A stretch of DNA of 64,000 nucleotides from positions 5,769,042 through 5,833,041 of the forward strand of contig JAPNXP010000010.1 in assembly GCA_028753945.1 (NCBI GenBank). The letters run 5' to 3'. The notes beneath the pieces were generated by a model that ran no database searches, was not told the origin of the DNA, and worked only from the letters and a program-made list of their open reading frames with translations. Source of the DNA: Hexactinellida sp. DTS-2022. Its lineage: Eukaryota; Porifera; Hexactinellida. Positions 19,252 to 60,500 of this stretch are shown piece by piece. The translations under genes were made by a program, and so were the position numbers. Each line of letters opens with the position of its first letter. Position 1 is the first letter of the stretch.

Positions 19252-19421
19252 CAGTAGAATTCGGTTATAATAACGTACCTGGGTTAGTACGTACTACTAT
19301 TGATAACAAGTTTATAAAACAGTATGTAATCCTATGTAGGGTAAACTCGGTTAGTACGTACACTCGGATATTACGTACTTATTTTCTATTCCCGTGGGAG
19401 TAAGATAACATAGTTCTACTG
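19252..19421. mobile_element. MITE, family D, at NHL gene start
   Basis: CAGTAGAATTCGGTTATAAT at the left, TAACATAGTTCTACTG then TA at the right, 170 bases. Its near edge is 41 bases upstream of the ATG at 19210. Confidence 0.8.
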
Positions 19422-29900: not shown

Positions 29901-31158
29901 ATTCCGTCCTATAAATCCTGTGATATTTTGACCCCATTAATCGGAGAATTTATTAACCGAACCGGTTGCTCTATTAAGCGGAGTCGATTGTATACTGTAG
30001 TATAATGTCTGGAGTTCTTAACTTATAAGTTATAATACCTATAATTTTTACTGTGCCGTATTGGGCACAGTTGTAATTTTTGATTTTTCGGTTATTGAAA
30101 TTTCAAATACTCTATAGTATACACCGCATATGTACTTATAGATACCCAGGGCAAGCACCATAGTCACCTATAGAGATACCGGTGTATATACTGTAGTATA
30201 ATGACTGGAGTTATTAGCTCATAAGTTATAATATCTATAATTTTTACTGTGCCATATTGGGCACAGCTGTAATTTTAGATTTTTCGGTTTAGAAATTTCA
30301 AATATAGTATTCTCCGCTTAATTCTACTAGGAAACGGTTGCCATATACCCCTATATAATTCATACCGGTTATAAGAACATTATATGCAGTTCCCGACGAT
30401 GTTCTTATAACCGGTATCCACTATACCATAGTTATAACTGGGGTTACTGTATGACAGTATGAACTCACAATAGCGTAGTACCATGCTGATATGAACATAA
30501 GGATGAGACATAGCACTGCGCCCAAAGTAGACAGTATCCAGTGATAGTATCGGAACCTAGGCCTCCAGTTAGGAGCCTTAAGTAGCGACTGTAGACTGCA
30601 CGCTATGTTAACGAACATGTAGCACATTAGGAAGAACATTGTTATTATAGGCGCAACGTAGTCTAGACTAGCTATTAGGATCCCGATCTCTGCTATTACT
30701 GCTGTGAGTATTAGAGCCCTGGTGGGCTCGCCTCCTATGGTGGATTTGAAGAATCCGACTAGTGGAAGTAAATCGTCCTTTGCGATGGCCTGTAAGAGAC
30801 GAGGGGCTCCTAAGGGTAATTAATGGCAATTAAACAGGTTTGTAAATATGTAGTAGACTCTCGTTAAGAGGAACACCAGGGGACCGTCGAAATACGTTCG
30901 TATTATACGGAATTCATAATAACCGGAGTCACTTGCATGCAATAATATAGGCTAGGGGATTAAATTTTGTACTCCTTAACCGATATTTCCATTTATCCGT
31001 GTTCGTATTAACGAGAGTCTACTGTATACTCACTCAACGATCAACAACAACTTAACTTAACTTAACTATACGTATAACTTAACTTAACATTAGCTCTACT
31101 GTATACTAGTTCAACGATGAAATAAACAAACAACAACAACAACAACAGCAACAACAAT

Positions 31159-31196
<38 letters not shown>

Positions 31197-35263: not shown

Positions 35264-35543
35264 CAGTCAGGTTCTTGTATTATTATGAACATTCAAGGGA
35301 CCTGTTCATAATAGAGAGACTTCATAATAAGCGAACTCAACTTAATAGAAACTATATGTAATTTGTTAAATTGGGACCATAGGGCTTGTTCATAATTTAA
35401 AAAAAAAACTTAATATTAACTTCACTAACAAATGAAAAATCTAAAATTACAGCTGTGCCGATTTTCTTTTGGAGGCACTACATTTGGTGGTTGGGTGCCT
35501 CCATTAGAAAATGCTGCCAGCACAGGTGTAATTTTAGATTTTT
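35264..35543. mobile_element. family E element joined to family F hairpin, at KCC gene start
   Basis: CAGTCAGGTTCTTGTATTAT begins 42 bases upstream of the KCC ATG and carries AATTGGGACCATAGGGCTTG; at 35412-35430 it passes via AATATTAACTTCACTAAC into a 109-base hairpin (35435-35543) with arms AAAAATCTAAAATTACAGCT / GTAATTTTAGATTTTT. A copy near 53707-53970 has the same E-spacer-F order. Confidence 0.75.
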
Positions 35544-36502
35544 CCTCATGCCATCATCAAGGTGTTAATAAAATCATATTAGCACCCTTTGAATGGTTGA
35601 ATAATTCAATTTCGGTGGTTATTTCGGTCGAATGGAAATCTAAGTAATAAGTTCAAGAAGTTACTTATACATCGACCAACACCTTTTCTAGTGCAATTCT
35701 CAGGCACTGGAAAGTTCATAAAGGTCAAAGTTAACATATTGTGTTCTCAAACAAACGGACCGAGAAAAAGATTTTAGATATAAAATACTGAAAAATGCAA
35801 TGTTTGCAAATTTATTGTGATACAGCAAATTGCAGTGCAGTAAATTCTTTTCTATAATGCAAGATATGTAATTCATGTAATCTAAAATCAAATATTTAAA
35901 TAATGTAATGTGAGTCTCTGATATAATTAGATAATAGGCAATTAACTACATATGCAATTAAAGATCATAAAGTGAGATTTATTTGATTCGTTTTGAGTTA
36001 GAACAAGTATGAAATAAAATAGATATATAATGACTACTTTACAAATATCAAAATTATTATTATTATTCTAATAATTAATTTTTTTTATCATCCCTGCCCC
36101 ATACTCTTCTTTCCAATTACTTAATGTACTCTACTAGAGTCTACACCATTGAACTTAATCTTATTATACTGTATATAAACTGAATATTTTAAATTATTTT
36201 TATGTACAAAATTGTAAGCGCATTGAGACATTTGTATAATGCATTAAATGGTGTATTAATTTATAATTAATATAATTATTATAACTGGCCTTTATATTCT
36301 AAATACTAGTGTGAGATACAAAATTTTACGTTGCAAAAAGTTCAATTGTTATGGAAATTGATAAAATATATTCATTAGGAGGACCTTTTATGTTATAACG
36401 TTCGTCAGCTATACATATACTATAGAGCTTTAAAATTCGTATAAAAAATAATTACAATTTTATAGTAAAAACCTTTATAGTTAATGTTACATTAAAAATT
36501 CG
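35544..36502. other. divergent spacer between KCC and SLC17
   Basis: A family G half (CTTATACATCGACCAACACC) lies near 35664. The rest is AT-rich with no recognised element or promoter motif. It separates the divergently transcribed KCC and SLC17 genes. Confidence 0.45.
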
Positions 36503-39500
36503 ATGGAAAGTGAGAACTTATTGGGAGAAAAACAGTCTACAGACTACACGAATAGTGGACAAACAGGAATATGGAATCCATCTGAAGGAAATGACAATTG
36601 GAATATGAATTGCTTTTACAGATTATTTCCCAAACTCCTGCCTTGTATCCCAGAGAGATATATCCTCGCATTTCTATTCAGCAGCGGTTTGTGTGTTGTG
36701 TATGCGTTGAGGGTTAATCTCAGTATAGCACTCGTGGAGATGGTTAATCACACCGTAGGAGAATACCCCAATGTGACATACGAAGTGAGTTAAGTGCGTT
36801 AATATGTATGTGTTATTCTACTTGTGTGTACTGTTATAAAGTGGTTATAGTTACGATGGCATGCATACTTAAGCCATACAAAAAAATTCGTAAAATTTGA
36901 ATAAGGCTAAAATCCTTGAATTTCTAGGATTCTATTTGGATTTGTGGATTTTCTTTGTATTTCTATGGGACTTATATTGATTAAATTTTTTTATACAATA
37001 ATTTGTTCAGGACGAACATTTCCGGGCTTTTTAAGGACACAAATATACTTAAAATAACCAAAGTACGTAGTGATAAATTTAGCTGGGATAATTTGTGAAT
37101 AAGGATCCACAAAATTAGAGTTTTAAATTCCAACACAAATATTGATATTCGAGAGATCATAATACGTATCACTCAACAACAAGAGAGTAAATAATAAACA
37201 TACACAAATTAACAATAAATATTTAATTAGTTACTCGAGTAAATAGGTATCATAGTCCAATTGTGTATATTAACTAATCGCTGAGTTGAGTGAGTAAGGC
37301 CGCCCCCCTTGATATCCAAAAGGAACTTTCTCTATCTGCAGGCAGGTTAACTGCTACAACAAAGTTAGTAGAATGTCCTGTAGTAGACAGTACACCAGCC
37401 CTCGCAGCCGTTTTATAAAGCGGCGCAGAATAAAAATTTGGGTCTTTAACAAAGTTCCTTCGCGGCTCCATATGCATAACTGGCAATGGAGGATTCATTT
37501 CACGGAAATTCTGATTAGACAGCAGCATTGTATCAAAATCCCATCGACATGCATCCAAGAAAAGACCATGTACAATAACACCGTCTTTTGGGACATCGAT
37601 TTCGATGTCCATTTTGAGCGATTCCCCCGGTGCAGTGACCATAGATTGTTCGTACACATCTTTTTGGTGTCTGCAATTAGGCTTAACTTGGTAGTGAAAT
37701 GAAAGCTCATCGATAGGCTCGTGATATTTACGCGCGTGATTTTGTAGCGTACCTGTAAGGAATCCTTGTGGGAAATAGAAACCGGACATCCAGTAGGAAC
37801 AAGGATTTCCGTATTTCATCCAACTTGAAATGAAATGTATTCTGTAGACTAAATCTTGTATCCAAGAGCCAAGAGGTTTCATTGATGGGTAAGCAGCCGT
37901 TTCCCACAAAGCAGGCACTTGACTGTTAATAAAACTTGTGTACACTTTCTCAAGTTGTTCTGACATAACAACAAAACCTTTGATAGCTTTTTGTATTGTT
38001 CGCATGCTATTCTTAACCACTTTCAATAACCCATTGTATCTGTCCACCTCTTGGCTTAACACAGTAGAGAGAGAGTTAATCTGTCCTTCTTCATTCTGTT
38101 CGAACAGTTCAGGTAGGGCATTATCCAAATCTAGTGATTCAGGGAATTTGCTGAGTATACTCTCGGCTAATTCGTATACGATGTCATCACTGGTTTTACC
38201 ACCGCCACCGGTTGAGGTCCTAGGTTGTACCGAAAGCACAGTCTTTATAAGAGCATCTCCTTCTTCCATTTGGTATGTGATATTCGCATTATCGTGCATA
38301 CCGAATATTTCCGGGTCATCTGTCATTGGGAAACCGTCGATATATTCGCGATAATCAGTAATGTATGGGGCTTCGGGAGCGTAGTATATACCCGATTCTG
38401 AGAATATGTAGCCAGGTTCGAGTGTTTCAGGTGCGAAAAAGCGCGCTAGGATGGTTCTAAGACACCTCTGATCCCAATCATCTGTGACCCTTCCTCCATA
38501 AGTTATTTCTCCTGATATAAAGGTTAGAGCGTCCCAGGGTATGTCGTCACCGGTTAGGAACATTTTTAGATTAAGCAGAGCAGTTTCTCGATCAGAATCT
38601 GTGAATTCGTAGCGGATATTCCAGCCTAGAGGACCGAACTTCTTCCGTTCAAGAATAACCGCGTGGAATAGGCAAATCCCAAACAGCATTTTTCTCCATG
38701 TAAGGTCTAAATAGTGATCCTCAAAAAATGACGGTTTTAATTCTGCGAACGAACGTTTTAAGTTGGCCCTTAATCCCTTCGGAGGTTCGTTAGTTACCTT
38801 AACTGAGTTCTGTAATACGGAAACAGGGAAAGTAGCAGTTGGTAGCGAGCTTAAATACAAACGGAAATTTTCATTAATTTCAGCATCCGGTGACTGAAAA
38901 CCTTTCACTATTATCTCAAGGTCAGGCATCCATGATGCGGCCAAATGACAATTCTGTAGAAAAACCCAATCACCAGAAACCTTTGCTTTCGCAATCATGT
39001 TTTCAGCAACAGGTCCTTGGCCTTGTCCAAGGGAAATTGAATTGAATCTCTCGTTATAATTCATATCTTCTGCAAAACGTAGGAACGAAGACATTGGATC
39101 TGAACCAGTTGAGAGGATGAAAATAAGCGGAGTTGTATTGTTAACATCTTGGTAGAGTAAACTCAGTTCTATCGAGGGACTTTCCACAAATATCTGTCCT
39201 AAGTTTCGTGTAACGAAAAGGGAAGCCGCATGTATTATGTTTTCCTCACTGAATGATTTTATTAGGATTATCTTCTGAAATTCACTCAACCTAACGTTCC
39301 AATGACCAATAATGGTATCTGGGTTATGTGTCCGGAATTCTTCAATATTTTCGGGCAAAGGACCTACATCAACGTAGTCACTAGATGCTGTTGGGTTTAA
39401 CCCAATATCGATTTCCCCAAAAGTTATGCGAATATGTGTAGAAAGCATTTCTTTACATAAACCCTTGAATTCAGGAAGATTCTCTTCCAAATCTAAACAC

Positions 39501-42500
39501 TGAATCCAAACTTCATTCGTTAGCCATGAAACGGGCGGTTTTTCTTCCCTCTCTTTTTCAACAGCAGCTGCTCCTCTCAAGAAAAAATTCCAATCTTCCT
39601 CAATCACTTCCTTACTTTCCCTCAAAATGTTACAACAGAGCATAAATGAGAACACAAGTTTATGTTGTTCGAATAATCCCCTTGAAACGTTCGTATACGA
39701 TACCTGTGTAGTATTTTTAAGCAGAGTTTTGAGCCTCGTTTCTAAAACAGTACTTTTCTCGCTAGCCTCAATACAAGCATTGAAGAACTGTTGGAAATAC
39801 TTTAACGAGAATTGGTACATTGGATCTATGTCAGGCAGAGTCGCTATTACGAAGTATATAAGCGAGCCTCGGGTGGCCACAGGTCGATATTTCTCCCTCG
39901 CAGCTAGAATATCCATTTCTGTTAACTCAGCTTGAGCAATACGTTCTGATATTTCCTCTGCAGTGTGTTTACTGGCTCCCAAAGCACTCACTAACGCTTC
40001 GTTATCAAGTACATTACCCTCGGCATGGAATAGCATTTTAAGGATTTTATCCTCGATACCCTTTAACTGGTGCTTGTCATGATTAATGGCTACAACCAAC
40101 TCATTTCTCTTCTCTTCTAATTCAGGTCTCTCTAAACGAACAACGTCACTCAATAGCTGATCCTCTAGCCCTGATAGTGTAACTGTAAAGTTTATAATCG
40201 TAACCTTAATACAAACCTCAGGGAGATAATGAGGGTTTGACATTTTTGAGGTCATATAAAACCTGAAATTTTTATCATAATCAACATCAGAATCCCCAAG
40301 GCGAATAAGCATTCGCCCACCCTTTGTGAAGATCTGTTTCAACAGAATTGGCTCTAACGAGGGGTCCAAACTCTCCTCAACTTCTTCCAATAAAACAGGG
40401 GTTCCCATACGAATCGCATTTTCTAGCGTTCGTAAGTAGTTACCATCGGTAAGTTTGATTACTTTAAGTCCGTTTTTAGATTCCATCATTTTAACCCATC
40501 GATTTGCCTGGTCTTGAGGGTCGATCATAAGTGGCCAGCGACGTGATCGAGTGCACAGAATTGCATTCTCAGTGGAAACTGCGTCTCTAGGCAACCCATT
40601 GGAATTCCATTGACGGATTTCATAAGGATCAGCAAGCACTTTATTCAACGACAAATTATCCGAAACTGAAATTCCTAACTCTTTACATTTTGTGATCCAT
40701 GAAGCTACCAATTCTATTCTGTAGGAAGCAGTGAATGCCCCGAAATAAGCCACGCACGCGGCTGCTATAAACACATCTCCAACCACATTGCCTAACTCCG
40801 CATTATACTGAGTCACATTTTCGTCCCAACGGATTTGTTCATCAGCCAGGGCTGTTGTCAAACGGCCGGCACGTTCTAACCGAGCTGCAGTTTGCGCCAT
40901 TGTAAACTCAAGTCTCTCTTTCTCAGCCAAACTGTCATTGAAAGCTGCCTTTAATCGATCGATTTTATCCTCTACATTCCTAAGTTCTTCCTCCTTCTTC
41001 TGAAGCTCACTCGTGACGATGGCGAGTTCGCTTTGAGCAGCCTCAAGTCGCTGTCTCTTAGGCTCAACTTCCTTGAATACCTTAGCGTAAATATCAACTG
41101 CTATAACCCACATTACAATTGACTTGCAAGCTCTGCTAGTCTTGTTCACTTCCTCAGCGTTAAAACTAGGATTTTCAATGTATTTCTTTAGTTTCCGAAG
41201 ATAATTCTCTGATATATTATCCTTGTCGTAATCGAAAAGACGTTTAATAAAATTAGGATCACCGAGTAGGATTTTGGAGGTAGCCCAATCAGGTCTTTGC
41301 CCGAACAGAATGCAAACTGATTCCATAACCGTTAGTACCATAGTTGGAGGTTTCGCGAAAGTTCTAACTTCCGAAATATCGCTTTTATCCAACGAATTAA
41401 GTGCTATGTTAGCATTTTCTAACGCTGGTAGTGCGATATCTAAATCTTTCTGAGCATCAGTTTCTATAGCCTGCGTTTCCTCTGTCTTTACCTGGGCACT
41501 GGCCTGATCTTTAACTACAATTTTACGAACGCGATCCGCCTCTTTCTGATCAGCTTCGAGGTTAGCCATAAGCGCAGCTGTCTCTTCAGATTGCTTTTGA
41601 AGCAGTGGTTCTAGTGCGGTTAATTCTATCTGCATTTCATCTACAAGAGCATTCGTTTCCTCCAATTTCTTAAGACCGTTCGCAACCCGATCTCTGTTTA
41701 CAGTTAACTGTTTACGCTTTTCGTCTAACATTTGTAAATAGAGAGTTATCAGCTCGAGATATGAGGTTGGTGTTGTGTAGTAATGACGACGAAGTTCTGC
41801 GAAAAATCTTACAGCCATTAAACTAACGCTTGTATGGATTTCAACACACATTCGTGCTATCTTACCTTTCAAACCTTCTTCAATAGTTTCAACTTCTTCA
41901 AATAAATTCTTTGCGACAGAAAGCAATGCTTCTCTTGGCCATTCCGTGAACCAATCTATTGTACAGCAGTTGACTAATGATGGGAACATACGGCATCTAG
42001 AACGAAACATGTCCCCAACTGGGCTCATACAAATAACGATATGCAAACGATCTTGTACTCTACTTATGAAATAATTAAAGATCCCATCTCTGTCCCCTTC
42101 AAGTATTCCGGCCTCTTTCGCACTGGGTCGTGTCGCGTTGATTATTTTCTCGTATTCCTCTGCTTCGAATAAATTCGGTACTTCGCCCGAATTTAGCATA
42201 TTGTTGATATCCTCAAGAAATTCCTCTACAACAATCTGGGTGTCTGTAAACAGGAATACTGTATCTTGATTCTCAATTCCAGCCATATTATAGAGCCGTC
42301 TTAAATCCTCGCGAAAAGATTCGTAGTTATAGCCTCGATTTAATTCTATTTGGAAACAGTTATATCCGTTCATATGAGAAGCGAGTCTTGTCAGACTCTG
42401 TTTACCAGTGCCCCCTACACCGACTAAAAGGGCATTGCCCCTTGGCTGTCTAACCATACGGGCTATCCTAGAAACGTGCTCAATTGCATCCAAGAAAAAT

Positions 42501-45500
42501 ACTAAGTTCATTTCCTTTGTACTGTTCATATTGAAATCATCTAGATAGTCACCTAATACATTTCGTACTTTCTTTAAATCCATGAGATCATCGTAAATTC
42601 GATCAGAAGGGGGCGCTCCCATTTTCATAAAATCTCCGAAAATGATTGGGTTGCTTTCAAGTTTTTCTGGAGGCATATCTTTACTGAAGTATTTAATACT
42701 AATCTCAGATAGAATGTTATAGAAATAACCTTTATCAGTTGTATTGATAAGTCGGTCATGAAAAGCTCGCATTGATTCATGCAGGAATAGACGAAACATT
42801 TGGTTTTTATCCCGGATAATACTTGGGTCAGCTTGCAATACACCTTGTATGCACTTTGAGAGATCGCGTAAGTTGAATATATAATGGCTCTTATCCGGTG
42901 TAGGAAGGAGATCAGTACTAATCCTACCGTAAATATCTACCGCAGCATTCACTATTGAATCCGAAAGCTCTTTCACTTCAGCAGTGAAATCTGCTAAAAA
43001 CCCGGTGACAATTGCATTGAATATTCCTTTCAGAGATATAGTGGATGGACTAGGAAGTGCGAACATTGTGAAATGCCGCATAATTCGCGGCGTAACCGGA
43101 TTACGGCCACCGCTAGGAGGGCCACAAGCTGCTGAAATTGTGACGTCACGAATTTCCTTCCAAAATAACTTTTCTCGGTCATAGAATCCACTGAAATCCA
43201 TGTACTGTCTGAGTAGCTCTATGGGAGGCTGCGACCCGTAGCGATCTAACTTTGGCATATTGAGATCGTCAACGAATATAACAATATGTTTCCCAGCAGG
43301 TGCACCTAGAATAGTTTTACGTTTTTTCTCAAGTTTGCTTTCGATAATTTCCTGTGTTCGTTTTGAGGATGTTTGAGCAGAGAAGTTTAACGTTACAGGA
43401 ATATAAAAGCCTTTATCTTGCATGGATAACAATTGTCCCTTGGCTATAACACTTTTCCCAACTCCTGTTTCGCCTGTGAATAAAACAGCACGTCGTTGGC
43501 CCAACAATTTCTCCATTAAAAACCCATAACGGACCGTATCTACTGTTGGGACTAAAATATCGAAATAAGGAACCTCGCTATTGTACTTGAATTCGGGGAG
43601 AATGTGATCCCATTTTTCAAACCGTCTCGATTCAATGTCAACAAAATACTCGAACATATCTCCTGAGGGTGGCAAACGTGCTTCGGTTAAATCTGAGAAA
43701 TTCTCACGCAGGAATCCATCCCAATTCTCCATTGTGCGTTGTGTTACGTTTCCAGATATATTCCAAGTGTAGCTGAAAATGAATAGCGAAGCGATAAAGG
43801 GATGTAGTTTTACTGGATCCTCAGAAAAATCGATACCTGGTTTTGTTTTCTTATCTTTCGCAACTTCTCTAGCTTCAATTGTATCAAACAGCAAAACCTC
43901 CAAAAGAGCACATAAACCGGTGACCCTACCCATATCAACCTGATCTATAACCTGTATACACATCTTACGAACAAACTTCAGACCAGAATCGATATAATGA
44001 TCGAAGAGATTATAAAGATAATCTTTTGTAGCTTCCTTCATTGTTGTAGGGAGTTTTTCCATAATCCAGGATTTAACGAAAGGTCGCCAACCTAATTCTT
44101 CTGGATCAATATATACCATTCCACATCTACTAACAGTTGATGGACTTGCTACTGCCAAATCTTGTACCTCGAATAACAAATGGATAGTTGGGTTTAGCTT
44201 GATTCGCTCTGAATTAGCTAAACACAACATTTTGTTATCATCCAACACTGTATTCATGTTTTCTATCCATAGGGCATCAACAGGGCCATCGCATACAATC
44301 CATTTAATATCGTCGCTTGTGTCTCTAACCGCTTCTCTCATACAAACAGCCATTAATCCATCTTGCCATTCTAAAGTTAGTTTATTAAACTCCCCGTATA
44401 ACTCTCCCATTCCTACTGATTTAGGATTCAATATATTTGTACGAACCTTCTGGTAATACTGACTAACTTCAATCTCTTTCATTTTTGCAAGTGTTTCTTT
44501 AAGAATTCGATAGCATGTGGTTTTCCCACCTCCAGTAGGGCCAATTAACATCACACCATGACGCACTATCATTGTTTCGTGCAACTGAATTACCTTTTTA
44601 ATTAAGTTATCCTGTACTTGGAACCCGTTTAGTTTCAAACAATCTTGTATAACAGTTTGGAACTTCCCGTAATCATGTTCAGGAAGCACTATACCAGGAA
44701 ATAAATCCTGGAGAATTGCTTTGAATAAAATCGTGTCTTGTTTCAAAAATTTTGGAATATTCGAATCTCGCAAAGCTCGTATCAAAACCACATCTTCGTA
44801 TTTGTCCGGATTTTCTCTTTTCAGAGCACCGGCCATCACCAACACAGATTTAACGGCTCTCATACCGAAATCGTAGTGATACGCTTGGGACAATTGTTCG
44901 GAACAAAGTTTGTACATTTGTACCATTTTTTGAGCTAGACCTTTGCTAGAAACGAACCCTTCGGAATATAGAATCACCTCTGCGATTAGTGCATAATCAG
45001 GCACCATCATCGCGAATGGACGGAAAAGCGCTTTCAAATTATCCGGTAATTCGGTTCGACCGGCATAACCCGGATTCATAGTCACGAACACAGAGCAAGT
45101 ACGATTCAATTTAATCTCCCTTCCTTCAAACAAGAATTTCTCAAGCTTATGTGCCTTCGCATTTCGTATTGTAAGAATCTGTTGCGCAATCACAGACAAC
45201 ACCTCTATATCAATCCTATTAAACTCATCAAAGCAACACCAAGCGCCTGACTGAGCTAATCCAGAGAAGAACCGACCCATCATCTTAAAATCTAGGCCCT
45301 CAGAGCAGTTGAATACCACACACTGTTTAGCTAAACCCTTCGCGAGATCTTTAACCGTCTCGGTTTTACCCGTACCGGCAGGCCCTGCGGGGGCACCGCC
45401 TAAATCTAACTGCAGAGCTCCCATTAAACACAGGTAGCACCTGTCGGTTAGTGGTGTAACTACTAGCCTAGAGCACGCACCTAGATACTCGTAACCATAT

Positions 45501-48500
45501 AGGTAGTTCGAGTTTGACATTCTAACTATACAATCATCTTCTTCTGTATCCCAATAGTAACGAAGGTTTTTAAGCCATCCGAAATCAGATACCCCTCTTA
45601 TCTCATTAACTCGCATTTCCGTTACAATATCACGTGAATGTACATCAAGTGTAATGAGTGTAGTGATCAGGTTACGACTTAGTTTAGAGAGATTCCCTCT
45701 CACCATAGAGGCTAGTTTGTTAAGATTTGCATAGCATTGTTCCTCACATAGCTTTACCATGCCTAGAGGATCGACTTCGTGTAGTAGAGCATCGCTTATG
45801 TCCTTTGCCCACATAATCTGTGATACGGTTAACACTATTTGGCTAGGGTGCAGGATACACCAATCATGTCGTGGTTTTTGTTCGAAATCAAGCAGAGCTG
45901 CCTTTGTGATTCTATAAAGAGACTTCATCATGCTTTCTTCTACATGGTTTAGCCAACTTTCTACATTTCCCCTAGCCTTTAAGCCTTTCGTTAGTGGCAC
46001 CCTTTCCCCTTCAGGTGAAAGCATGGCTAGAATGTCTGTGGTGAATACCTCTTCGCCTAACTCATTCTTTGTCTTTGCGAAATCGAGTTTTGAGATCGCA
46101 TCAAAGCATTTCCGTAAGTGGGGTTGCACTGCTTGTGGATTCCTGGTTTGGGAAAGAATTTCTAGGAGCTCGTCATTCGATAGGAAATAGAAACGTGAGA
46201 AAGATAATCGTTTCGTCTCCAAATATTCTTCTAAACATTTCTGTATTTTCTCGAGCAGGCTATTATTCTGTTGGAAAGCCTCAAGCCTTCCAGGTGCTGT
46301 ACAAGCTCTCAGAGCTTTCGGTGATTTCTTAACGTCCCTCATAATTTCCTTCCAAGACTTGTCAACAATCGCGAAATCCTTTGCCTCTTCTGGCAACTGT
46401 CTCTGAATGTCCGGCGCGGTGAAAATACTCTCAAGATACAACCATTGATGCTGGCAATCTAACCACGCATCAAGCATTTCTGAGAATAGAATTAACTGTT
46501 TATGCATATCCTCAACTTTCGGTCTAATTGGGCCAACATGCCTTGAACCCAATATTGTACTAATCTGCACTAAACTATCGTCTAATGCAATCTGTACATC
46601 TTCAGTTCCACCGAGGATAAAAACATCTTTTGTGTCACGATGATTCAAAACGAAAAACTCAGTTTTCTTCCAAGTATCCTCAACCATTTGTAGCATATTT
46701 GATAGATTTGCTTCTGAAGAAGCTTGTCCTGAAATCTCTTGAATTTGTTCCGCTATTTCGTATATTTCCATTTCATCTAAATCCCCAACAGTTAAATTAT
46801 CCGGTTTCATTTCCCTTTTTACTAAAGCTGATAATTGACTCCAATGTCTCGGCTTTAAATTCGGATTGCACAAGTCAGTAATTGTCGGCATTTTTTCCTT
46901 CATTTGGCCAACTTTTGCTTTGAGTTGAGGGACGATTAAATTGGGGGGCAACCCTTTGTCAAGTTGGAATGTTGTCTTGACATACCTTGTAACTTGAGAG
47001 CTCATGGAGTCAGGTTGAATCTCAGATAATAAGGTTTGTGCCCACTCTTGACTGATCTGATCAAATTCCCCTTGTACGTTCCAAAGTGTATGTTTCAGTT
47101 TAAGTTCTGCATGCGTTTCTTCAAGTTCATCAAACCTTGTCAATTCCATTTGGAACTTTTTCTGGTATCCACGGTATTCTTGTGCTTTGTCATTCAAATT
47201 ATCCATTGTTTGTTGCAACCCAGTTAATAGACCGGTTACTTCTGAAGATTCAGACGCAGGGTCGAGGATGATTGGTTGATCAGCTCTCTCTTTAACTTCC
47301 CTAACTTCCTTACCAAGTTCTGTGATATCATTTTCGAGACAATTACGAAATTCATTCTTCTTCTTTTCAAGCTCACTCACTGACTTATCGATTGTAGTTC
47401 TAAGGCTACTCATCCCTGGTTCGAGTGTCATGTAAGTCGCCATATCTTCCGCATCACAAGGTACAACGTATTTCTGTATTAAATCGTACATTTCTCGCAC
47501 AATTAATTTATCATCATCAACCGAAGGCATTTGGTCTTGTACACTATTTATGAATGAAATATTCTCAACGTACTCCCTAGTTGTAGAAGGGATATACCCT
47601 AATCGAGTGTTCGCATCTTGTGCAAATTCTATTAGTTTATCAAGTCTTTCTTTTGCCATTTTTGGTAGTATTTTGTGTATAACTTCGAGACACCGCATTG
47701 TAGATGGTTTCAACTGTTTTTTAAGTTCGGCTGTATCAACCATAAATGCCCCTACATTCATTTTTTCCGGGCACTGTTCAGCTAAGTAATACTGTCGATC
47801 GTATTTCTCAAGCGAAGTTTGGAAAAACTCAACATCGTGTTCCTCCTGCATTAACTGATTCAAATCCATTTCTTGATTTTCTTGAAAATAGGCTCTAAAA
47901 GGTTCCCACATCCTAGCATATTCGTGTACTTTCTCAAAAGCCTCACCCATTGTACTTTCCATTCGCACCATTAGTTTCTCAATAGTCGGGTCATCTTCTA
48001 GGATAATCTCAAGACTAGGGGGGTCAGGTATCCCTTCCTCCCTTCGTTTGTTTATCATTGGTCTAGCGTACGAAACGAATATTTTATCGATTATAAGTCG
48101 AGGCATTGCCAACACGCAATCTTTGAATCTCTGTCCAATTTCATCCATTAGGCTTTGGAAATCTTCAACTTTTGGATCTGAGAATAAAGTGGATCCTTCA
48201 AGCCTAAGAGAGGTTTTGAAAACAGGTTTTACATTTGTGTCCGTTTCGATTATTTCTTCTTCTTCCTCCGTTTCTCCCATTTCCCTGCGCTCCCTTACGC
48301 GCATAAGTTTCAATGTTAATTCCGCCATTAAGTCCTTAGGTGTGAAAGATAGCTTAACACAGTCATTAAGCATCCCAAGTAGGTTATTCAATGAGTTGAA
48401 TGATAAGCCGTGTAAGGAGCTTAGAATCATATAATCAGTCAATCGAATGAAACGTGATAAGCGATGGCAAATGTCTCGTTTGGAAGCTTGTTCGGTATAA

Positions 48501-51500
48501 GAACTCTTGTCTAAGGTGTCAAGTGGGGAAGTTCTCTCCTCCAAAGGACCGCAATATTCTTGTTTCTGTAATCCTATCTCAAACAGGTTTACAACCTCTT
48601 CTGATAATCCTATTAATTCCATTTGTGTGACACGAAACACCTCATCTGGTATGAACATATTTCTAAGCAGAACTCGCTGACAAGCTTTGATGACAAAGAA
48701 TTTAATCGCTTCGCGGAATTTAGCAAGCGTGAATGAAACTCTACTCATTTGTTGGTATTGTTCGTCTAAGAACGCTTGTTTGGAATATATTTTCGAGGTT
48801 TGCCAACAACAGAGTTGTTGAGTTTCACAAATCGCGTGACATTCCTTTGACACAGTTAGTAACGCAGGAGATAAATCACTGTTTAGTATAAATAGCTTTT
48901 CTTGAAGGTTTTTCCCTCTGGCACTCAAAATATCGCGACGCACATTCCTACGCCAGGTGCTAAAAGCTTTCCAAAGTTTGAATTTCGCGAATATTTTTAT
49001 TTTTATGAGATGATGATAATTAAAGAATTCACGCTTCCAATCATTTAGTGGTGTAAAATCCATTTCTTCGCCATCGCGAAAATGTGTAACACCTTTTGAG
49101 CTTATGGTTCTATAGTCACTTCTGTCCACATTTTCCCACGAAACAATCCGTAGATTGTACGGGTTATAGTTCACATTCCTACCTCTCATCTTGGTTGCCA
49201 TGTAGAAGAACCCTAAGTCTTCCCTTCCGGCTAGTAGCTCTACTATTTTGAGAGTATCCTCTGTCTGTGTGATCTGTTCTACGTAGCTGTTGATTGGAGG
49301 GTCAGTTGTTGTTGTCTCTTCTCGCTTTCTGCCACGACTACCTGTAATGTTAGGGATGGAAAATCTAAAATTAGAGCTGTACCGACAGCATGTTCCTTAG
49401 ATGGAAAAATCTAAAATTACAGCTGTGCCGACAGCATGCTCCTTGGAGTCGGGTCAGTAAAATTAAGTTGTATTTAAATTAAATCGTTATAAGCGGTTAT
49501 TTCGTTATATCTAACTTCGTTATAACGGGAGTTCACTGTATATTTACTATTCAAATATAAATTGTTTTATATAATTTCAATTATGATTATGCCCATTCCA
49601 AGATTTCAAATTTCTTGAATTTTTTTTTATTTTTTCGATAAATTTGAATAAATCATTATATACAATATGATTTATTCAAACCTGTTTTCCTCCTTGACTG
49701 AGACTGCAGTTTCCGCGATACGGGTGGGGAGGGTATCTTGCTTGAGAAGTTCCTCTGCTGTAGGATTAGTGTGGGAGGCAGGTTTGGTAGGTTGGAGGGA
49801 TGCGATGTCTTGGGAAGAGGCGCCACTTGAATAGGCTTAGAAGCCTGAGGTATTATTGGCTGACGCGTGGAGACAGAATCCTGAGATTTAACTACACAAA
49901 TGAGAAAATTATTAAAGATTCTTTAAATTCTAAATCCCCTCCTCATAAATTTCAGAAAATATAATAGATATTTCGCTATTATTTTTGGAAAAACTCAAGT
50001 TTTCGTAATTATTTTAATTCAATCAATTATTCTCAATAAATTCAAGGAATATTTGTAAAACAAATTTTTGAGATTTCATATGATAAATACTGTACAAGAA
50101 TTGAAATAAAACTAAAGGAAACACTATAAATAACATAGAATAATAAAACTGAACAAGCTATAGAAGGGAACTCACTAGAACTCTTCTTATTCACTCTCTG
50201 ATAAGCAGCCAGGGCTGGAATCGGATCTCCCGTATGAATACGAGAAGTCACTATCCCTCCATTACCGGTATTCACATTAAGTCCCACGGGAGAGAAGTCC
50301 ATATAGGATCCGGGTTCTAACGTGTATATACCGGGAGTGGGATAGTTCTTAGCTCTTAGAGCCTCTGGATCTATCTTAGGGAGAGAGTCAGGCGAACCGA
50401 TTCCGGGCAGAAGAGAGGCCTGCGCCTTCCTTATAGGCCTGGGGTCTGTTGACATACTAGTGTGCTAATTGTACTATAAATAGATCTACAGTAGAACCTC
50501 GTTAGTACGAACACGGTTAATACGAAACTCTGGTAAATACAAACACTATTTCAGTCACCTTCAAAGCCTTTTCAATACAAACGACACAGGTTAAAACGAA
50601 TTTCGATTTCAGATTTATAATAGTATGAATTTCGGTTCTACTGTATAGTATATACTATAAATAGATCTCCAGTAGAACTCGGTTATAATTGATGGGCTGA
50701 AAATTGGCATATAGGAGTGACAGCCTAATTTCCACCTGTGGTTACGATTATTGATTAACATATTTTGGACACATTTTTAACATCTGTAAAAATTTGTCTG
50801 ATCCATAATAACTTGAAAAATTTATACTCAAAATCTAAAATTACAGCTGTGCCGACAGTATTTTCTTTTGGAGGCACTACCAACCACCAAAATATAGTTC
50901 TTCCAAAGGACATGACATGCTGTCGGCACAGCTGTAATTTTAGATTTTTGTTATATAAAATGGTCCAAAAAGCGTGACATAAGGAGGGTGTCTAATTTCC
51001 CTATAATTTAGTGTTAAATATTATGTAACGTTTGAAAGGCTCCTAATGATAATTTGAGAGTTATATTTATTGAATTTTGTCGGCTTACTAGCAGTATTAA
51101 AAGTATTGGTATAATTCATTTGTTCATGAAAATATTTGTAATTATGACAATTATTTCAATAGGGAGAGTTCAATTGGAGTGACGAAGAACAAGGTACTAT
51201 ACTGTAACAATAGTGTAATAATAGCGAGAAAATCAAGTCCAAGGGACCTTTCGTTTAGTTCGCTATAAGTGGAGTAAAAGTGGAGTAAAATAAATCTACT
51301 GTATTGTGTAGGTTGGGTGTTGGCAGCGTTTTTCTACGGGTATCTGTTCACACAGATTCCGGGAGGCTGGCTTGCAACTTATTTCGGAGGGAAATGGGTG
51401 TTCGGAATCGGAGTGTTTGTTACAGTGCTGCTTACATTTATAACGCCTATTGTGGCGCGTGTTAGTGTGTGGACGCTGATAGCTGTGAGAGTATTGGAGG

Positions 51501-54500
51501 GAGTGGGAGAGGTGAGAGTTTAGTTATTATGTGTACAGTAAAGTATGTTATTGTTGTTGTTGGTCATTGAATAGTAGAGTCTCATAATAGGAACCGGATA
51601 AGGGAAATATATGTTATGGAGTACAAGGTTTAATTCCCCTAGCCTATATAAATGCATGCAAGTGACTCCGAATAATACAATTTCTGGTTAATACGAATAA
51701 GTTCGACGGTCCCCGGGTGTTCCTATTAACGAGAGTCTACTGCATTCTGTAAATACAGTTACTGATAGACTAATATCGAATTTGAATATATATTGAGAAT
51801 TCATTATGGGGATAAGGGTTAACAATATGATTAATTATATGAATGTTCATATTGCATACTTTATATGAATAACATACTCTAATAATGGTATTGTATCACA
51901 AAGTTGTTTGTTTGTCTTTTTATTATAAAACAATACAATAGTAGCATCGGATTACAAAAACAAAATAGCAATTAAAGTTGTAAAGAAATACTTCTAATTT
52001 ATTTAATTAATTAATTAACATTGAGAGTCCCAAAAGCAATAGAGTTTCTAATAAGCGAATAAGAATCATAAATATAGTGCGAAAAGTTATTAATTAAAGT
52101 TAATTAAGTGACAAGTTGAATGAATACTTAACTAGTTAGCTATCTAGTTAGTTAGTTAGTAAGTTGATTAGTGCAAGCTAAACATGTATGTTTTCCATCT
52201 TTCTTTTGTTCCACGGTCTTATTTGAAGGAGCATCATCTTCTGTTTCACTACTGGAACCATCACTCTCACTACAAGAACTACATTCACTGCTATCAGACT
52301 CACTACTCTCATTATCCTCATTACTATCCTCCATATTTTTCTCTATCAATTCTGCTATTACTTTCAATAGATTATCCGCTAACTCATGATCAGGCTTCAA
52401 AACCGAAATCGCTTTACATAGAATTAAAGCGGGCCATAGGCTATTAGCACACAAACATTGTACACACTCCATTAGGAGCTCTAAAGGTACACTGCCATCC
52501 TGGGTTAATTGTAGGTCGGATAGCTGAATGGTACACCCTGCTTTATCTAATATTTCCTGTGGATCATTTGTCATGTCATCATCATCACTATTTTCTGAAG
52601 AAGAGTAATCACTACTCACTTCTGCTATATGATTATCTAACTCTGAAGTTTGATTGGTTGCTTCGTGCAACAGAATTTCCTCACCGTTTGTGTCCATTAT
52701 AATTCCAGCTAACAGAGCTATAAACTTAATGCTACAGTGGTGTTAGCGTAATAGCAAGTCGCATTTTATACGAATTTGCTTGCTAATAGGCGAACTTGCT
52801 ATTAGGGGAACAAAATTAACGTTAAATGTTCGCTTGGGGACTGTAATAACTTGCTAATAGAGCAATATTGCTATTAGGCGAACACCACTGTATTTAATAA
52901 AATTTCAACGCAAAAATTTAGTCAATAATTTTGGAATTTGCACTTCAATGTGTGATAGACCATACTTTTAGTAATACAAAATTGCCCAAAAACGTGAAAT
53001 AGGGAAAGGGCGATGTCTAATTTTCCCCGGAATTTTGCGTAACGTAACGTTTGACCGGCTTCACGTATATATAAATTAGCCCGTTTAACTTCATAAGAGG
53101 AATCAGTTAATTACTTATTATGTTGCTTATGTGTATCCTATGGTAGGGCGTAACCTTTCCCTCAATGCTAGCTGTATGGGGCCCGTGGGCACCTCCCAAG
53201 GAGCGCAGCAGATTACTCACTATAGCATGGACAGGTTAGTTAGTCAGGAATATAGCTAGCTAGCTTCCCAACCTTGTTCAACCGTGGAATATGTACACAG
53301 TTTTAACGTTTTGTTTACTTCGGATAAGCGAATATATTTATACTGCCCATGGATTCTTATTTGTCCCCACAAGTATATTTGAATCCGTAGACTCTAGAGC
53401 TGTAGAAACATGCCCCTTACAGTTCAAACATTTCAATTCTCCCCTCCCAAATATTCCTAAAAAACACCGTCCATTAATGTTTTCTAACGAGGTACTAACG
53501 AGAGTTTATTCTACTTATCTGTAAAAGTTTGTTAACAAGATGCAACATAGTATATATTATAATACTCTTGTAGGTGTATTCTTGGGGAACATAATATCGT
53601 TCCCAATATCAGGGATAATATGCCAGTATTTGGGATGGAGTTGGGTATTCTACATATTTGGTAAGTAAAGTTGTAATAGATTTGTATAGATTTGTTTATA
53701 TCAATACAGTCAGGTCTGCTTATTGTGAACAGTTTTTCTTAATGAGCTTTTTATTAGGAACAAGTAGTGCCTGCAAAACAAAATCGGCACAGCTGTAATT
53801 TTAGATTTTTGTTAGTGAAGTTAATATAAAGATTTTTTTAATTTTGAACAAGCCCTATGGTCCCGATTTAACAACTTTTTGTATTAAGTTGAGTTCGCTT
53901 ATTATGAAGTCTCTCTATTATGAACACAATTTTTGGTCCCTTGAATGTCATAATAAAAGAACCTGACTATATATTTTTTCAATTTTTTTGTAACATTGTA
54001 TATAACGTATTATATATACAGGTATAGGGGGCACAATATGGTTTGTTTTCTGGACGATATATGCGTCAGATCGTCCATCAAGCAACACTAGAATAACAGA
54101 GGAAGAGAGACTGTATATCGAGGATAGTCTTAAAAGCGAGTATAAACAAGGGAACGTAAGAATGAGTAGTATTATAATACAATACAATGAAATCTTGCTA
54201 TAACGAAGTCGGATATAAATAAATAAACAACCGCTTATGATGAAGTTATATATAATAAGGATAAAAAAGTATTTTGCTCCGCTTAAAACTAAGTATACGA
54301 AGGGCCCCTTGGACTTCATTATAACGGGAGTTCACTGATATTAAATTAATAATAAGGAAAGATATAGTAAAACAATTTCGAATAAAAAAGTTAAAAATCG
54401 AAAAAATGAACTTGAGAAAAACTAAGGGTTAATTTTTACCATTTTTTATAGTATAAATTTGTCGGAATATTAACATAATTAATCACTCCAATCACCATTA

Positions 54501-57500
54501 AAAATGTCATCAACCTCTACATTATCAAAATTTTCTATGGAATTACTTTGAGGCTGACTTCCAATACTTTCTTGAGAATCTTGAGAAAGTCCAATTCTCA
54601 TTCGTTTTGGAGAAGGCACGAAAAATTCTTGTATTGTTCTTTGTTGTGAGTTAGTAGCTTGTTGTTGTTGTTGTTGTTGTTGCTGTAGTGGTGGTGGTTG
54701 TGGTTGTGAGGTGAAAAGTTCACTCATTACAGAGTTCGTATCGAAACAATCAGTTTTAGTATTATTCGCAAGACCAGCTTGACTAAGCACATCAATTTTC
54801 TTCTGCAAAAGTGGCCAAATTCTATCATCAATCGTACCACGCGCTATCAAATACTGAATTTCAACATTTTCATTTTGTCCTATTCTATGAGCCCTGTCCT
54901 CTGCTTGTCTAAGGTCGCCTGGGTTCCAAAATAACTCCGCAAATACTACAGTCCTTGCGGCGGTTAAAGTTAGACCGGTGCCAGCGGCTTTTAACGAGAG
55001 AAGAGCAACAATTGGGTCACCATGCTGAAATGAATCACAGGCACTTTGTCTAGCTATTGGAGGCGTAGCACCTACTATCTTAACAAATCCTATTTTATTT
55101 GTTTGTAAAACCTGCTCTAATTCAGCTCCCATTGTTTTATGATGGAAAAATACGATAACTTTAAAAGGCATGCTTTTCCTTTCCTGACTACAAGAACTCT
55201 GGAAAGAGTGTTCTGATTCATCTTCAAAATCTGTTTTATTTTCAAGTTCGGTGTTATCTTTAATTAATCGGATTAAATAGCTACAAACTGATTCAGCTTT
55301 TGCGTGTGCTGTTTTTGCGAATAATTCTAGCATACAACCATACCTGTCTTGTTTGGGAATAAAACTCAACTCACTAATGCCTTGTCTTAACTCTTTCAGT
55401 TTTGAATCTTCAAGTTTTATAATTATCGTTTTACGAGTTTTTGTAGGTAAACATGGTAGAACTTCATTTTTATTCCTACGTATCATTATACGTTTGTTTA
55501 AATAGATTTGTAATTCGGCAAGTCGGCTCGCCCCTGAATAATCCCAACCCCATAAAGTCTCTTTCGCATCACAGTAACGCTTCGCAAATTGGAAATTCGA
55601 TATTTTGAATTTCTTGTCTACAGCTGTGATCTGAGGGTACAGTTCCATTGGTCTACTCAGTGCCGGGGTGCCTGTTAATAGCAGAACATGATCAGCTGAT
55701 TTTAAAAGCGGAAGTGCGGCTTTTGTTCGTTCGCTTTTAGAGTTTTTCAAGAAATGAGATTCGTCAGCTATTAGGATAGCATATTTCAAAACCTCTCGTT
55801 TCATTTTAATTTTAGTTAGCTTGACAACCAGATCGTACGATAGGATTGTGATCGGTAGCGACATTAAATCTTCCGCAAATTCACCAGAAGAGAATGGAAT
55901 GTGGATGGAATCTTCATTCAACCAATGTACCCATTTAATCAGCTGTTCTTTCCAACTTAGCCTTAACGAACTCGGACACATTATCAATAACGGCCATTTC
56001 AACTGAAAATAACATGCAACGGCTATTGCCTGTATTGTTTTGCCTAAACCCATTTCATCTGCGATTATTGTCCGACCATTTCTAGCAATGCAGAATTTAA
56101 CGCCCTCAACTTGATAAGGTAATAAAGAGGTTATTAAATCCTGTGGTATATCAGAACCTTCTAGTATTATTTTATCATCAAACTTCTCAATTAAAACTGT
56201 TAAAATTGTCGGTGGGATTAACTCTAATTTCAAATCAGGGCAATTTATTTCAATTTGAGCTACCAAAGATTTGTAATCTGAAATAGGAAACGACCAATTC
56301 TTAGTTTTCGGGTCATAACTCCAAACTGGAGACCGTTTGAAAACGCTAATTAAATCCTTGTTGTGTTGTGTTTCGACAATAAAATGGTTATCATCTTTCA
56401 ATGAGAATACTACTACGTTGGGTTCAGTAGGCTTGTTAGTTTTCCAGTTTTGTTTAGGAGATTTATTGGAAGACGGATTATGTTTCGTAGGATTGTTAAT
56501 ATAATTGTTGAATTTAGAAGGGGAAGCGTGAGGGGAAATAGTAACTGTTGAAAGTTTGCTTTTGGATTTTAACTCCAGAGCTTTCTGTCGATTCTCCGCA
56601 ATGCGTTTTAGCTGCTCTGACGTCATTACACTGAATGAATTCCAAACTTTGGGAAAACGAATTGTACAGTAAACCTAGTACACTCGTTTGAAAAGGTCAC
56701 TAAATCCGAAAAAGTCGTTATTATCGATTTTTATCTAAAACAGATGTCCAAATGTTTACTGTAATTTCACAACCTACGAATTTGAATATAGAATATAGCG
56801 GAACAATTTCAATTATTCGAACAAACCTTGCTAGTCCCAATGTTATCCAATAAATTAATTCAGCCTTAAATTATCGGAACTGTTACACTATAGCTCATTA
56901 TTTTCAGCCAATTTTCCCGTTTTTCTAAAAATGCAATTTTTTCGTACTAATGTATTCTTATAATTATTAAGTATTCGCACACAATAATTGAATAATGCAC
57001 ATGATGCAAACAATAAATACACTACAGAGTAGTGATAGAGTCAATAGAACCTAATCAACAACAACAACAACAATCATAATAACGCTATATAGAGTATTCA
57101 CCTAAGTTTACACAAGATATTACTTGCCTTTTTTCGCTTCGAGTTTGCGTCTCAAACTTTCCGGCATAGTTGGTGGGGGCGGTCGTGGCAATCTAAAATA
57201 GACTTTTACAGAATCATAAATGAACCATTGCAAAGCAGTGAGAGTTCCAATCATAATAATTCTCAAACCAAGTCCTTTCCAAAGCCCTCGCATTCCCAAT
57301 TTCTTAGCTGCCTCCATTGCAGTAGACCCTTTGTCCGAATTAAGTTTAGAAACAACTGTGTCGGCAGGATGCGACACAATAGCACAGAAAACACCAGCTA
57401 TATATCCGGCTGCAAATGTTACAACTAACTGCTCTGGTTTGCTACACTCAGACCTAGGCTTAGGAACGACATACTGGTATAAGAACTCAACTGTTCTCTC

Positions 57501-60500
57501 AAATGCAGCGAACTTCATCATGGTGTACGGTATTTGTCGCATCCATAGGGGCACAAGGCCTTTATAGAACCCCCATAGACCCTCCTCTCGGAACAACTTT
57601 GGTACCCCTTCGCGTAAAGTGTTGGCCCAGCCAGGCTGAGTCTGGATTCTAACTTTCACGGCTTCCATCGGTGACAAAGCAATATCGGCGAAAAATTCCG
57701 CACTCGCGCTCGCGGCTAAATAAAGTGATGTGCGCCAAAGATACGAATTCTCTTCTCCCAACAAGTTAGAGTAGAATATCTTGAAAACCTCGTAAAACCC
57801 GAACTTACAAAGCCCCTGCATTGAATACCCGATTAAAGTCGGCGCCCAACCTTTGCCTAGCGCTCGCATACCACCCTCACTAGTCGTGACAACGAACCCT
57901 CTGAAAATACCCGGATATTTAACCGGGTCAACCTGAATGCGGCATTTCACGAGGTCTAACGGTACAACGGCTGTGTGCGTCAAACCGCAGCTAAGAATTC
58001 CGCCGAAACCGCAAAGCGCGTAGAACTTAGAGGAACCGTATGTACAACTGTAGGTATCGGGACTAGCGGCCAAAATGCGTTGTTTTAGGAGCGGATTTGT
58101 GAGCTGTGTGCCTATTGGGAATTTCTTTGAAAGATCAGAATTCATTGGTTGTCGGTGGGAGATAGGATATTAGTGTGTAATGTGATTGGTTAGGAATCCT
58201 AAGGTATGTCTTATGGTTTGCTAAGATTGATAAAAAGTAATTCTATTCGCCTGTTATAATATTACTGGACTATGGACACTGATTAATTAAATGCAATTAA
58301 AAAACACATTAGAACCTTTGCACGTATTTAGGTTTCTTATGCAGGCAAGGAATTATTTATGATTGGGCATAAAATTGTGAAAAAACTATTGTTTTAGGTG
58401 TCATACCCCCCATTTACCTATTTATATAAAATATCCGTTTTCCTTACAACGTATATTTCTAGGTGAGTACCCCTTGGTTCGAGATATGGACCTCGCTCCC
58501 TGTGTGGGCCATAAGCATAGCTTCGTTCTGCAACAATTGGGGATTCTACACACTGCTTACCTGCATGCCCACCTTTCTAGAGGAAACAATTGGCCTCAGT
58601 ATTAGAAACGTAAGTTGTATATAATCTAAATCAGGGTTTCATACAGGTTGTTGTAGGGGGGGTATTTGCCCCCCCCCCCCCCCCCTTAAGAACATACATA
58701 ACCCAGATTGCCCCCCTTGTATGAAACACTGTAAACGTACACTGTACGTAAGTTATATAAAAGCTAGATGTACTTCCATGTTGGTAAGTTTTATGTAGTA
58801 TGTGTTTTAAGAGACCATTCAAACGTTACATAACACTTTCTAGGGGGGGGGGGGGGTTACCAATGTGTGACAAACCATTTTTGTATTACAAAATTGTCAA
58901 AGCGTGATATAAAAGGGGATTTCTAATATTCGGAAATTCGAAAAAAATTCGTGAAAAAACACGTTTGAACTTCCCTTAAATGAGCATATTTTTTTATGTA
59001 TAAAATTCACTTGTTGTTTGGTGAGCCACATTCTATAGTAAAACTTTGCTAAGGTGTCCATTTTAACAATAACAAGTACTTAATTAACATATGTATATTC
59101 GTAACAACAACACAACAACAACAACAACATAAACAAGCCCTCAATACACTAATTCATCCATCCCCATTTCTTCCTATAAGACTGATAATAAGAGAAATAA
59201 AGTGTGTTTATTTTCCTACATCGCCTGGCTGAATTAACCGTCTCTCTCAAATTGCAAACATACAATTTAGCTTCGATCATTCGTAGAACCTTCAAGTCTA
59301 CGGCTCTATCGAAATCTTTGGCTCTTTGTTTCCTGAAATTCTCAAGCGGGTCTTGGTCGAGATAGGCGTATCTCTTTTTTTGTTCGTCAGTCAAATCCAT
59401 TTCCTAGCTACAGCTAGGGTAAATAGGAATTTACAATTAATTCAGTAGACTTAAGTTAGGTTGGGGGAGTAATATTTGCAAGCATATTTTATGTAAAATG
59501 TAATTTGCTAATTGGGGAAATGTGATCTCAAATCACCATTTTATCCTCATCTGAGATTAAATTATCCTTTATTCTAAAATTTCCTGTGACATTATGTGGA
59601 CCCTCCCATAGTCCGTAATACAAATTATGAGATATTGTGGAATCCAGGTTGGGAACCACTGACTTAGAAGGGACATATACAGTAGAACCTCGTTAGTAGA
59701 ACCAGGGCCGTATTAGCCTATACGCCAATTACGCCTGGGCGTAGGGGAACGTACACTTGGGACCACTTCAAATATCGTGGGACCTAACTCGATGCAAGTA
59801 TATACTGAGCACCGATAATATTTTGTTGACACAAATTGAACAATAAAAATCCAAAATTGCAGCCTGTGCCGAGGAATTTCGGTTTGGAGGCACTACATTT
59901 TGATGTTGGGTAACTTGTAGTGCCTCCAAAGGGAAATACTTTCGGCACAGGCTGCAATTTTGGATTTTTATCGCCATGTCATGAACAACTCATGGTGTTT
60001 AGACCCATTTATCAAGTTGTTACGGGACAAAGGACTCTTAGTCAAGACGAACGCTCATTTTCTAAATTGACACTCATCAAAAGTGATTCGTCTTATCCGG
60101 AAATTCGTATTAATTAACCGTGTTCGTACTAACGAGGTTCTACTGTAATTCAATTACTATAATATTCTCATAGAACGGATTGGTATCAGCTATTCCCTAT
60201 ATCCTGAATCTACTTGTTAACTTGGTCACCGGAGTAATTGCGGATTTCGTAAGGAAAAGATGGATTAGCACGGGTTTAACAAGAAAAATATTTACAGCCG
60301 GAGGTAAGTTAAATGCTAAGATATAATCTGCCTCATTAATACAGCTAATTATAGTGTAACCAACTAGTAAGATATAAAGCTGTTTCATCAAATGTTACAA
60401 ATTCCCTTTTAAATGTACAAAATAAGTGCTTACTTTTAAATATATGGGCCATAACTTTTCAATATAAAAACTCTTTTTTGTAAAAAATGACCTTGTCTAA

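Follow-up and report, generated by a model that had tools for sequence, protein, structure and literature searches.

Short non-autonomous DNA transposons (MITEs) have been described next to gene starts with quite different consequences. In C. elegans, about one-third of the germline-specific promoters are stated to be derived from two MITE families in the available passages of the respective study (PMC9757741); in Fusarium, according to the accessible part of another, mimp MITEs located in promoters are deletable without loss of expression (PMC3599309). A precedent for a preference of transposition for open promoter DNA is the Drosophila P element, which inserts at heat-shock promoters, as given in the excerpt of that work considered here (PMC2793543). 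For the glass sponge Aphrocallistes vastus, the passages at hand report a trans-spliced leader of approximately 37 bp, predicted on only 4% of the long reads, together with 2432 nested genes and many genes of a single exon, one exon measuring 147 kb (PMC10282587); in Oopsacas minuta, the corresponding excerpt attributes 15.4% of the genome to DNA transposons (PMC10280926). A search for literature on sponge MITEs returned nothing to the point, and a distance register of 33–42 nt before the ATG that is common to several MITE families was not found in the titles, abstract beginnings and passages that were searched.

In this study, we describe such a register in a 64-kb window, i.e., the whole stretch of DNA that was analysed, which is animal DNA of about 35% GC. 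At six of the 19 coding starts of the window, the near edge of a short inverted-repeat element lies 33–42 nt 5' of the ATG. The distances, which had been claimed in a preceding sequence-only reading and were reproduced on recount, are 33 nt for DNAH6 (near edge at 50489), 34 nt for a Mieap/SPATA18-like gene (26581), 37 nt for an ERICH2-like ORF (52735), 40 nt for a SMARCAL1-type gene (56667), 41 nt for an NHL-type gene (19252), and 42 nt for a KCC gene (35264). In none of the six reading frames does an in-frame ATG precede the one used here, and the near ends of all six elements start with CAGT. The near flank, for which TA had been claimed, less perfectly at KCC and NHL, is TA at five edges including that of KCC, while it is AT at the NHL-type gene. 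The observation of six edges in the 33–42 nt band is confirmed, and the register, formed 5' of start codons by ordinary mini-transposons, is both real and unusual.

The coding starts, 14 on the minus and five on the plus strand, were defined from reading frames, from Pfam searches with 40 selected ORFs and from matches to solved structures. Less certain are those of a coiled-coil ORF (4329), a TACC-like ORF (13309), an NDUFB10-like gene (59400), and a membrane ORF (61855). DNAH6 is composed of a presumed first coding exon (50186–50455, minus strand; ATG at 50455, exon end approximate) and a main exon of about 12 kb in one reading frame (37274–49340, minus strand), with a 3' splice site placed by eye at about 49340. 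The large ORF matches three solved DNAH6 chains at >5200 bits, and its residue 18 aligns with residue 155 of the solved chain 9fqr_Xz; exons 1 and 2 would together amount to about 161 codons. No relative of exon 1 was found in the comparison with solved structures. In DNAH6 (37274–49340, minus strand), about 12 kb of coding sequence is contained in a single exon, and introns are seen at the 5' end; introns confined to the 5' end are the pattern expected of cDNA-mediated intron loss.

The Mieap/SPATA18-like gene has a presumed first coding exon at 26279–26546 (minus strand, ATG at 26546), which would form one gene with the last exon, where the MIEAP domain is located (21855–22577). The SMARCAL1-type gene (54479–56626, minus strand, ATG at 56626) shows Pfam matches to HARP, SNF2 and helicase C; the solved structures matched by its protein are those of other SNF2-family remodellers, and the name was chosen because of the HARP domain. 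Candidate names only are attached to the ERICH2-like ORF (52152–52697, minus strand), for which the sole Pfam match, BUD22, is far below the cut-off, and to the single-exon NHL-type gene (17999–19210, minus strand), with a sole SdiA-regulated match just below the cut-off. The KCC gene, of the SLC12A4-7 type, extends over 26942–35221 on the minus strand (ATG at 35221); at its exon 8, seven 44-bp tandem copies (29437–29747) span the acceptor and the first codons and repeat the splice site. A plus-strand MFS transporter gene, presumably of the SLC17 type, apparently has its exons spread over 25 kb (36503–61390), with exons placed by eye at 36503, 51311, 53147, 53540, 54022, 58463, 60174, 60558 and 61252. 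Inside its introns, the opposite strand carries DNAH6, the ERICH2-like ORF, the SMARCAL1-type gene, a mitochondrial carrier gene and the NDUFB10-like gene; the carrier presumably resembles SLC25A3, a likeness which, as for SLC17, adds to the Pfam match (mitochondrial carrier and MFS, respectively). The location of all six register genes on the minus strand, put forward earlier as an asymmetry, is not significant, with a probability of 0.11 for six out of six given 14 minus-strand starts among 19, and was given no weight.

The elements themselves are ordinary MITEs of several families, with CAGT ends and TA as target. The family A element at DNAH6 (50489–50643) has CAGTAGAACC ends, is TA-flanked, and matches 14008–13902 at 90% over 107 bp. 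The family B element at the Mieap-like gene (26581–26746) is matched over its full length by five copies at 78–80%, the family D element at the NHL-type gene (19252–19421) matches 3198–3029 at 86% over 173 bp, and the family E element at KCC (35264–35545, far end approximate) matches 53974–53764 at 84% over 231 bp. At the ERICH2-like ORF, the family I element (52735–52890) possesses a 25-bp terminal inverted repeat at 92%, and, in self-BLAST, its far half is matched at 80% over 99 bp and its near half at 77% over 73 bp (loci 1423–1519 and 2305–2376). The candidate element P at the SMARCAL1-type gene (56667–56761) is delimited by 10-bp TACAGTAAAC inverted ends; self-BLAST of the window gave no convincing second copy of it, only one weak 53-bp match. 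TA is present on both sides of the elements at DNAH6, Mieap, ERICH2 and SMARCAL1, on the far side of that at NHL, where the near side is AT, and on the near side of that at KCC. Inverted arms could be aligned for five of the six elements, the far end of the Mieap element beginning with CAAT. The edges are exact for B and D, based on end-to-end alignment with other copies, and for A, which aligns from its edge. Five of the six elements belong to families with further copies inside the window, and P does not; all ends share CAGT, so that, judged by their termini, the six "families" appear to be related in kind. The elements diverge from their kin by 10–23%; the insertions are not fresh, and the position has, therefore, been tolerated.

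Ends of the CAGT type are abundant in the window, with 82 matches to an end matrix at scores of at least 9 versus 4.8 in shuffled sequence. A transposase domain was not detected among the 40 selected ORFs (Pfam, E 0.01), the exact or degenerate end patterns had no match in collections of viral contigs and genome contigs, and Rfam and tRNA scans of the window gave no matches. Several further arrangements were observed. A 26-bp direct repeat (96%; 50472–50497 and 50653–50678) brackets the DNAH6 element and exceeds a TA duplication; it takes in the first bases of the terminal inverted repeat, and its outer copy merges into a family D end at 50670. A second, distinct MITE family with AAATTACAGCTGTGCC ends is found at 35434–35544, 49355–49444, 50838–50940 and 59846–59968 and in pieces at 30064–30285, and two family E elements (at 35264 and at 53707) contain stretches of it. 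Three family A ends occur in tandem and in like orientation at 1675–1802, about 40–50 bp apart. The acceptor of KCC exon 4 (32976–33000, TCTACTACTGTAG) resembles a family B end by eye and is possibly an element-derived splice site. Finally, an unvalidated seventh candidate end (59443–59460, plus strand) lies 42 nt 5' of the NDUFB10-like ATG at 59400, with a matrix score of 8.3 and the flank TT; self-BLAST of the window revealed no second end, copies or family for it.

For statistical evaluation, the distances between the 19 starts and the ends facing them were compared with those of ends that had been rotated or placed at random in noncoding DNA. The end matrix was trained on 43 ends, which comprise none of the six near ends but do contain two far ends, those at Mieap and ERICH2. 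When the nearest end per gene is considered, three genes fall in the band at scores of at least 9 (p 0.051–0.055 for the best 10-nt range), four at scores of at least 8 (p 0.002–0.004), and five at scores of at least 7 (p between 0 of 20,000 and 2 × 10^-4), the latter with NDUFB10 and without KCC and SMARCAL1. When every facing end at a distance of up to 300 nt is counted, there are three in the band at scores of at least 9 (p 0.13), five at scores of at least 5, six at scores of at least 4, and seven at scores of at least 3 (p 0 of 6000 for each of these three thresholds), and few other ends are near genes, namely at 4, 114, 122, 124, 214 and 279 nt. When the Mieap and ERICH2 far ends are dropped from the training set, the matrix places four genes in the band at scores of at least 7 (p 0.012), five at scores of at least 5 (p 0.0005) and six at scores of at least 4 (p 0 of 6000). 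For the ten-base band, where well below one gene had been anticipated earlier, the matrix gives 0.26–0.38 genes expected versus three to seven observed. A second approach, the uniform homology rule, treated all 146 TA/AT-CAGT sites alike and kept 54 ends. An ATG is faced at up to 300 nt by just four of these, at DNAH6, Mieap, NHL and KCC, and all four are in the band (0.16 expected; p 0.0028 for the best 10-nt range). The near edges at SMARCAL1 and at the ERICH2-like ORF are not retained by this rule, the latter being based on the 25-bp inverted repeat and weaker family matches.

These data bear on the view that there are just a few real near-gene insertions, with a band chosen post hoc and weak ends accepted for falling in it. 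In its favour, the ends scoring at least 9 put only three genes in the band (p 0.05 for the nearest end to 0.13 for all facing ends), the near ends at KCC and SMARCAL1 score low (3.2 and 4.1), and the sample is a single 64-kb window with only 19 starts, of which several are uncertain. However, admitting weak ends everywhere (scores of at least 3) yields one end at 4 nt, seven at 33–42 nt and five at 114–279 nt, and the uniform homology rule keeps its p of 0.0028. Furthermore, five elements with TA-flanked, perfect 8-bp inverted CAGT ends 60–300 bp apart are present versus 0.025 per shuffle, and three of the five are those at DNAH6, ERICH2 and SMARCAL1, albeit by a post hoc criterion, which was picked after the ends at these three genes had been viewed; the DNAH6 element is found both in this way and by the homology rule. 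We regard chance combined with selective reading as improbable. A further test, in which weak ends were rescued by homology near genes only, gave five genes (p 5 × 10^-5 to 1.75 × 10^-4), but is biased in favour of the register and carries no weight in this verdict.

The pattern is one of register, not of attraction of edges to starts: genes having an edge within 150 nt are not significantly more numerous than expected (p 0.11–0.69), and the zone of 43–278 nt, with three ends versus 6.7 expected, is not significantly depleted (p 0.08). Within 50 nt, the count is raised for the sets with weaker thresholds (p 0.11, 0.03–0.04, 0.007–0.008 and 0.001–0.002). At stop codons, edges within 50 nt are absent (0 of 17), but with 1.0–1.2 expected this control has little power. 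A bias in TA supply was rejected, the TA dinucleotide frequency being about even over the first 90 nt (0.13–0.17); five TA sites drawn at random within 150 nt cluster in a 10-nt range with p 1.9 × 10^-4, in a test for which the AT site of NHL was added by hand and the far end of KCC was assumed. Packing into the upstream room was likewise rejected, given that random placement at the six genes, with two block lengths set by hand, puts 0.16 genes in the band. An additional search for TA-flanked inverted repeats covered all 19 starts and placed none in the band at the 13 starts outside the register; this search is insensitive and recovered two of the six known elements (DNAH6 and ERICH2).

We lean, tentatively and at somewhat less than even confidence, towards insertion at the open DNA of transcription starts combined with survival where the leader was spared. 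Repeated insertion would have occurred at one structural spot, the border between the promoter/start region and a short leader beside the ATG. We infer that transposition prefers the accessible DNA of transcription start regions and that only those insertions would survive which spare the last 30-odd bases, be it the leader or the leader together with a splice acceptor. The elements would, thus, mark the 5' edge of an essential leader without necessarily having a role for the gene. That several families are found at one spot suggests that the choice is position-driven rather than sequence-driven. This reading is favoured by the four out of four homology-rule ends within the band among those facing an ATG within 300 nt (p 0.0028), by the five to seven band genes obtained when the matrix is applied uniformly at thresholds of 5 to 3 versus 0.32–0.39 expected (p of at most 0.0005), and by the failure of even TA supply (p 1.9 × 10^-4 for random TA sites) and of random element placement (0.16 genes) to produce the band. 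On the other hand, a simple preference for open chromatin predicts an enrichment within 150 nt of ATGs, which is not significant (p 0.11–0.69); the 10-nt spread in ATG distance requires equally uniform leader lengths; the three strongest ends alone give p 0.05–0.13; and the stop-codon control is of little power (0 of 17 versus 1.0–1.2). In a variant which we consider possible but unlikely, a targeting rule common to several MITE families directs them to a set position in the region where transcription starts or trans-splicing takes place, and some of the elements now serve as start or acceptor. If so, element edges would map start sites or acceptors genome-wide.

Element edges are also seen near splice sites. 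Within 25–50 nt, they are found at five of 24 5' sites and at three to four of 25 3' sites, versus about 0.9 expected for each. This excess mostly vanished when the elements were placed as blocks within their own introns (3' sites, p 0.27; 5' sites, p 0.02, which is marginal; sum, p 0.013). The block test comprised 14 introns, 13 of them with elements, excluded those SLC17 introns which hold other genes, and used hand-set block limits and several hand-set exon ends. Because the excess was mostly lost, the ATG register is not merely one case of a general exon-edge rule; a weak general effect may exist.

The gene-proximal end of the element might, alternatively, now supply the transcription start, the core promoter or a splice acceptor, a co-option which we deem rather improbable. 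A stretch of 33–42 nt would leave little room for both a leader and a native core promoter; if transcription started within this gap, the element would, therefore, have to supply the core promoter. The ERICH2 element contains TATAAA about 30 nt inside its edge, and the DNAH6 element end followed by TA and G reads TTCTACTGTAG, with an acceptor score of 7.8, while the edge acceptor of ERICH2 scores 4.9. However, a scan of the 70 nt inside the near edges for TATA[AT]A, the one core-promoter motif covered (the host's own start motifs may differ), located it at about 30 nt in ERICH2 and at 59 nt in NHL and not in the other four, so that a match near position 30 occurs in one of six elements, and none common to all six was seen. 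An edge acceptor is weak at Mieap (0.3) and absent at SMARCAL1, NHL and KCC, and MITEs in promoters can be idle, as the accessible text on the Fusarium mimps indicates (PMC3599309).

In a third scenario, the genes are trans-spliced, with the promoter 5' of the element and the element in the spliced-off outron; a minimal acceptor (branch point, pyrimidine tract and AG) and a very short leader would stay beside the ATG. This option had been missed by the sequence-only reading, which offered promoter-preferring insertion or co-option; the non-random register on which it built is real, while its two explanations are candidates. The gene layout of the window resembles the style of A. vastus, for which the passages at hand report a trans-spliced leader (PMC10282587). 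Acceptor-like scores, according to a model built from 21 internal acceptors, peak within 45 nt 5' of ATGs, with scores of at least 5 at seven of 19 starts versus 24 of 171 cases in nine bins lying farther from the ATG. Between edge and ATG, acceptors score 5.9 in KCC, 5.8 in ERICH2 and 6.7 in DNAH6 (background 90th percentile, 5.8), but lower in Mieap (4.2), NHL (2.6) and SMARCAL1 (0.7). Upstream donors are not consistent, which argues against a 5'UTR intron in most genes; 5'UTR introns as a general cause were rejected on these grounds. The acceptor peak is only suggestive of trans-splicing, because scores in sense do not exceed those in antisense orientation (p 0.22–0.33). In addition, the leader is, in the text available, predicted on just 4% of the A. 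vastus long reads (PMC10282587), packing into short introns accounts for elements lying close to internal 3' splice sites (p 0.27), and tolerance alone leaves unexplained why the edges stop at 42 nt, without spreading upstream. Overall, we judge the outron explanation to be conceivable, yet on the doubtful side.

If the register is present across the whole genome, the edges of the elements would indicate from sequence alone where transcription or trans-splicing starts in a poorly studied animal, and several unrelated mini-transposons would be directed to a single position of the gene or tolerated there.

In comparison with known systems, the elements are like the MITEs derived from pogo/Tigger or Tc1/mariner transposons (e.g., Stowaway and mimp) in being short, in their TA target and inverted ends, in comprising several families, and in lying near genes; CAGT ends together with a TA target are what we take to be the mark of pogo/Tigger kinship. 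P elements make 8-bp duplications. With the Drosophila P element, the window elements share a position that is thought to be set by promoter structure and not by sequence; the P bias, however, spans whole proximal promoters as described in the excerpt considered, whereas the elements described here keep to a 10-nt register and a TA target (PMC2793543). The C. elegans CERP2/CELE2 promoters are alike in that MITEs adjoin gene starts in an animal with trans-splicing; there, as far as the available passages go, promoter function was deduced from shared motif pairs and reporter tests, whereas the window elements have no common motif and are known from sequence alone (PMC9757741). Introners, as portrayed in the text at hand, come to mind since some element ends (DNAH6 and ERICH2) resemble 3' splice acceptors, but the window elements are not co-terminous with introns and have no consistent donor on the far side (PMC9860276). 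Near the far edges of the five elements other than that at KCC, no consistent donors were found, SMARCAL1 having one fair donor 65 nt past its far edge; because of this, introners do not fit, and an identity with them was rejected, as the element ends fail to coincide with both splice sites. Regarding gene layout, the window resembles the glass sponge A. vastus, likewise containing a large exon, that of the 12-kb dynein, and nested minus-strand genes.
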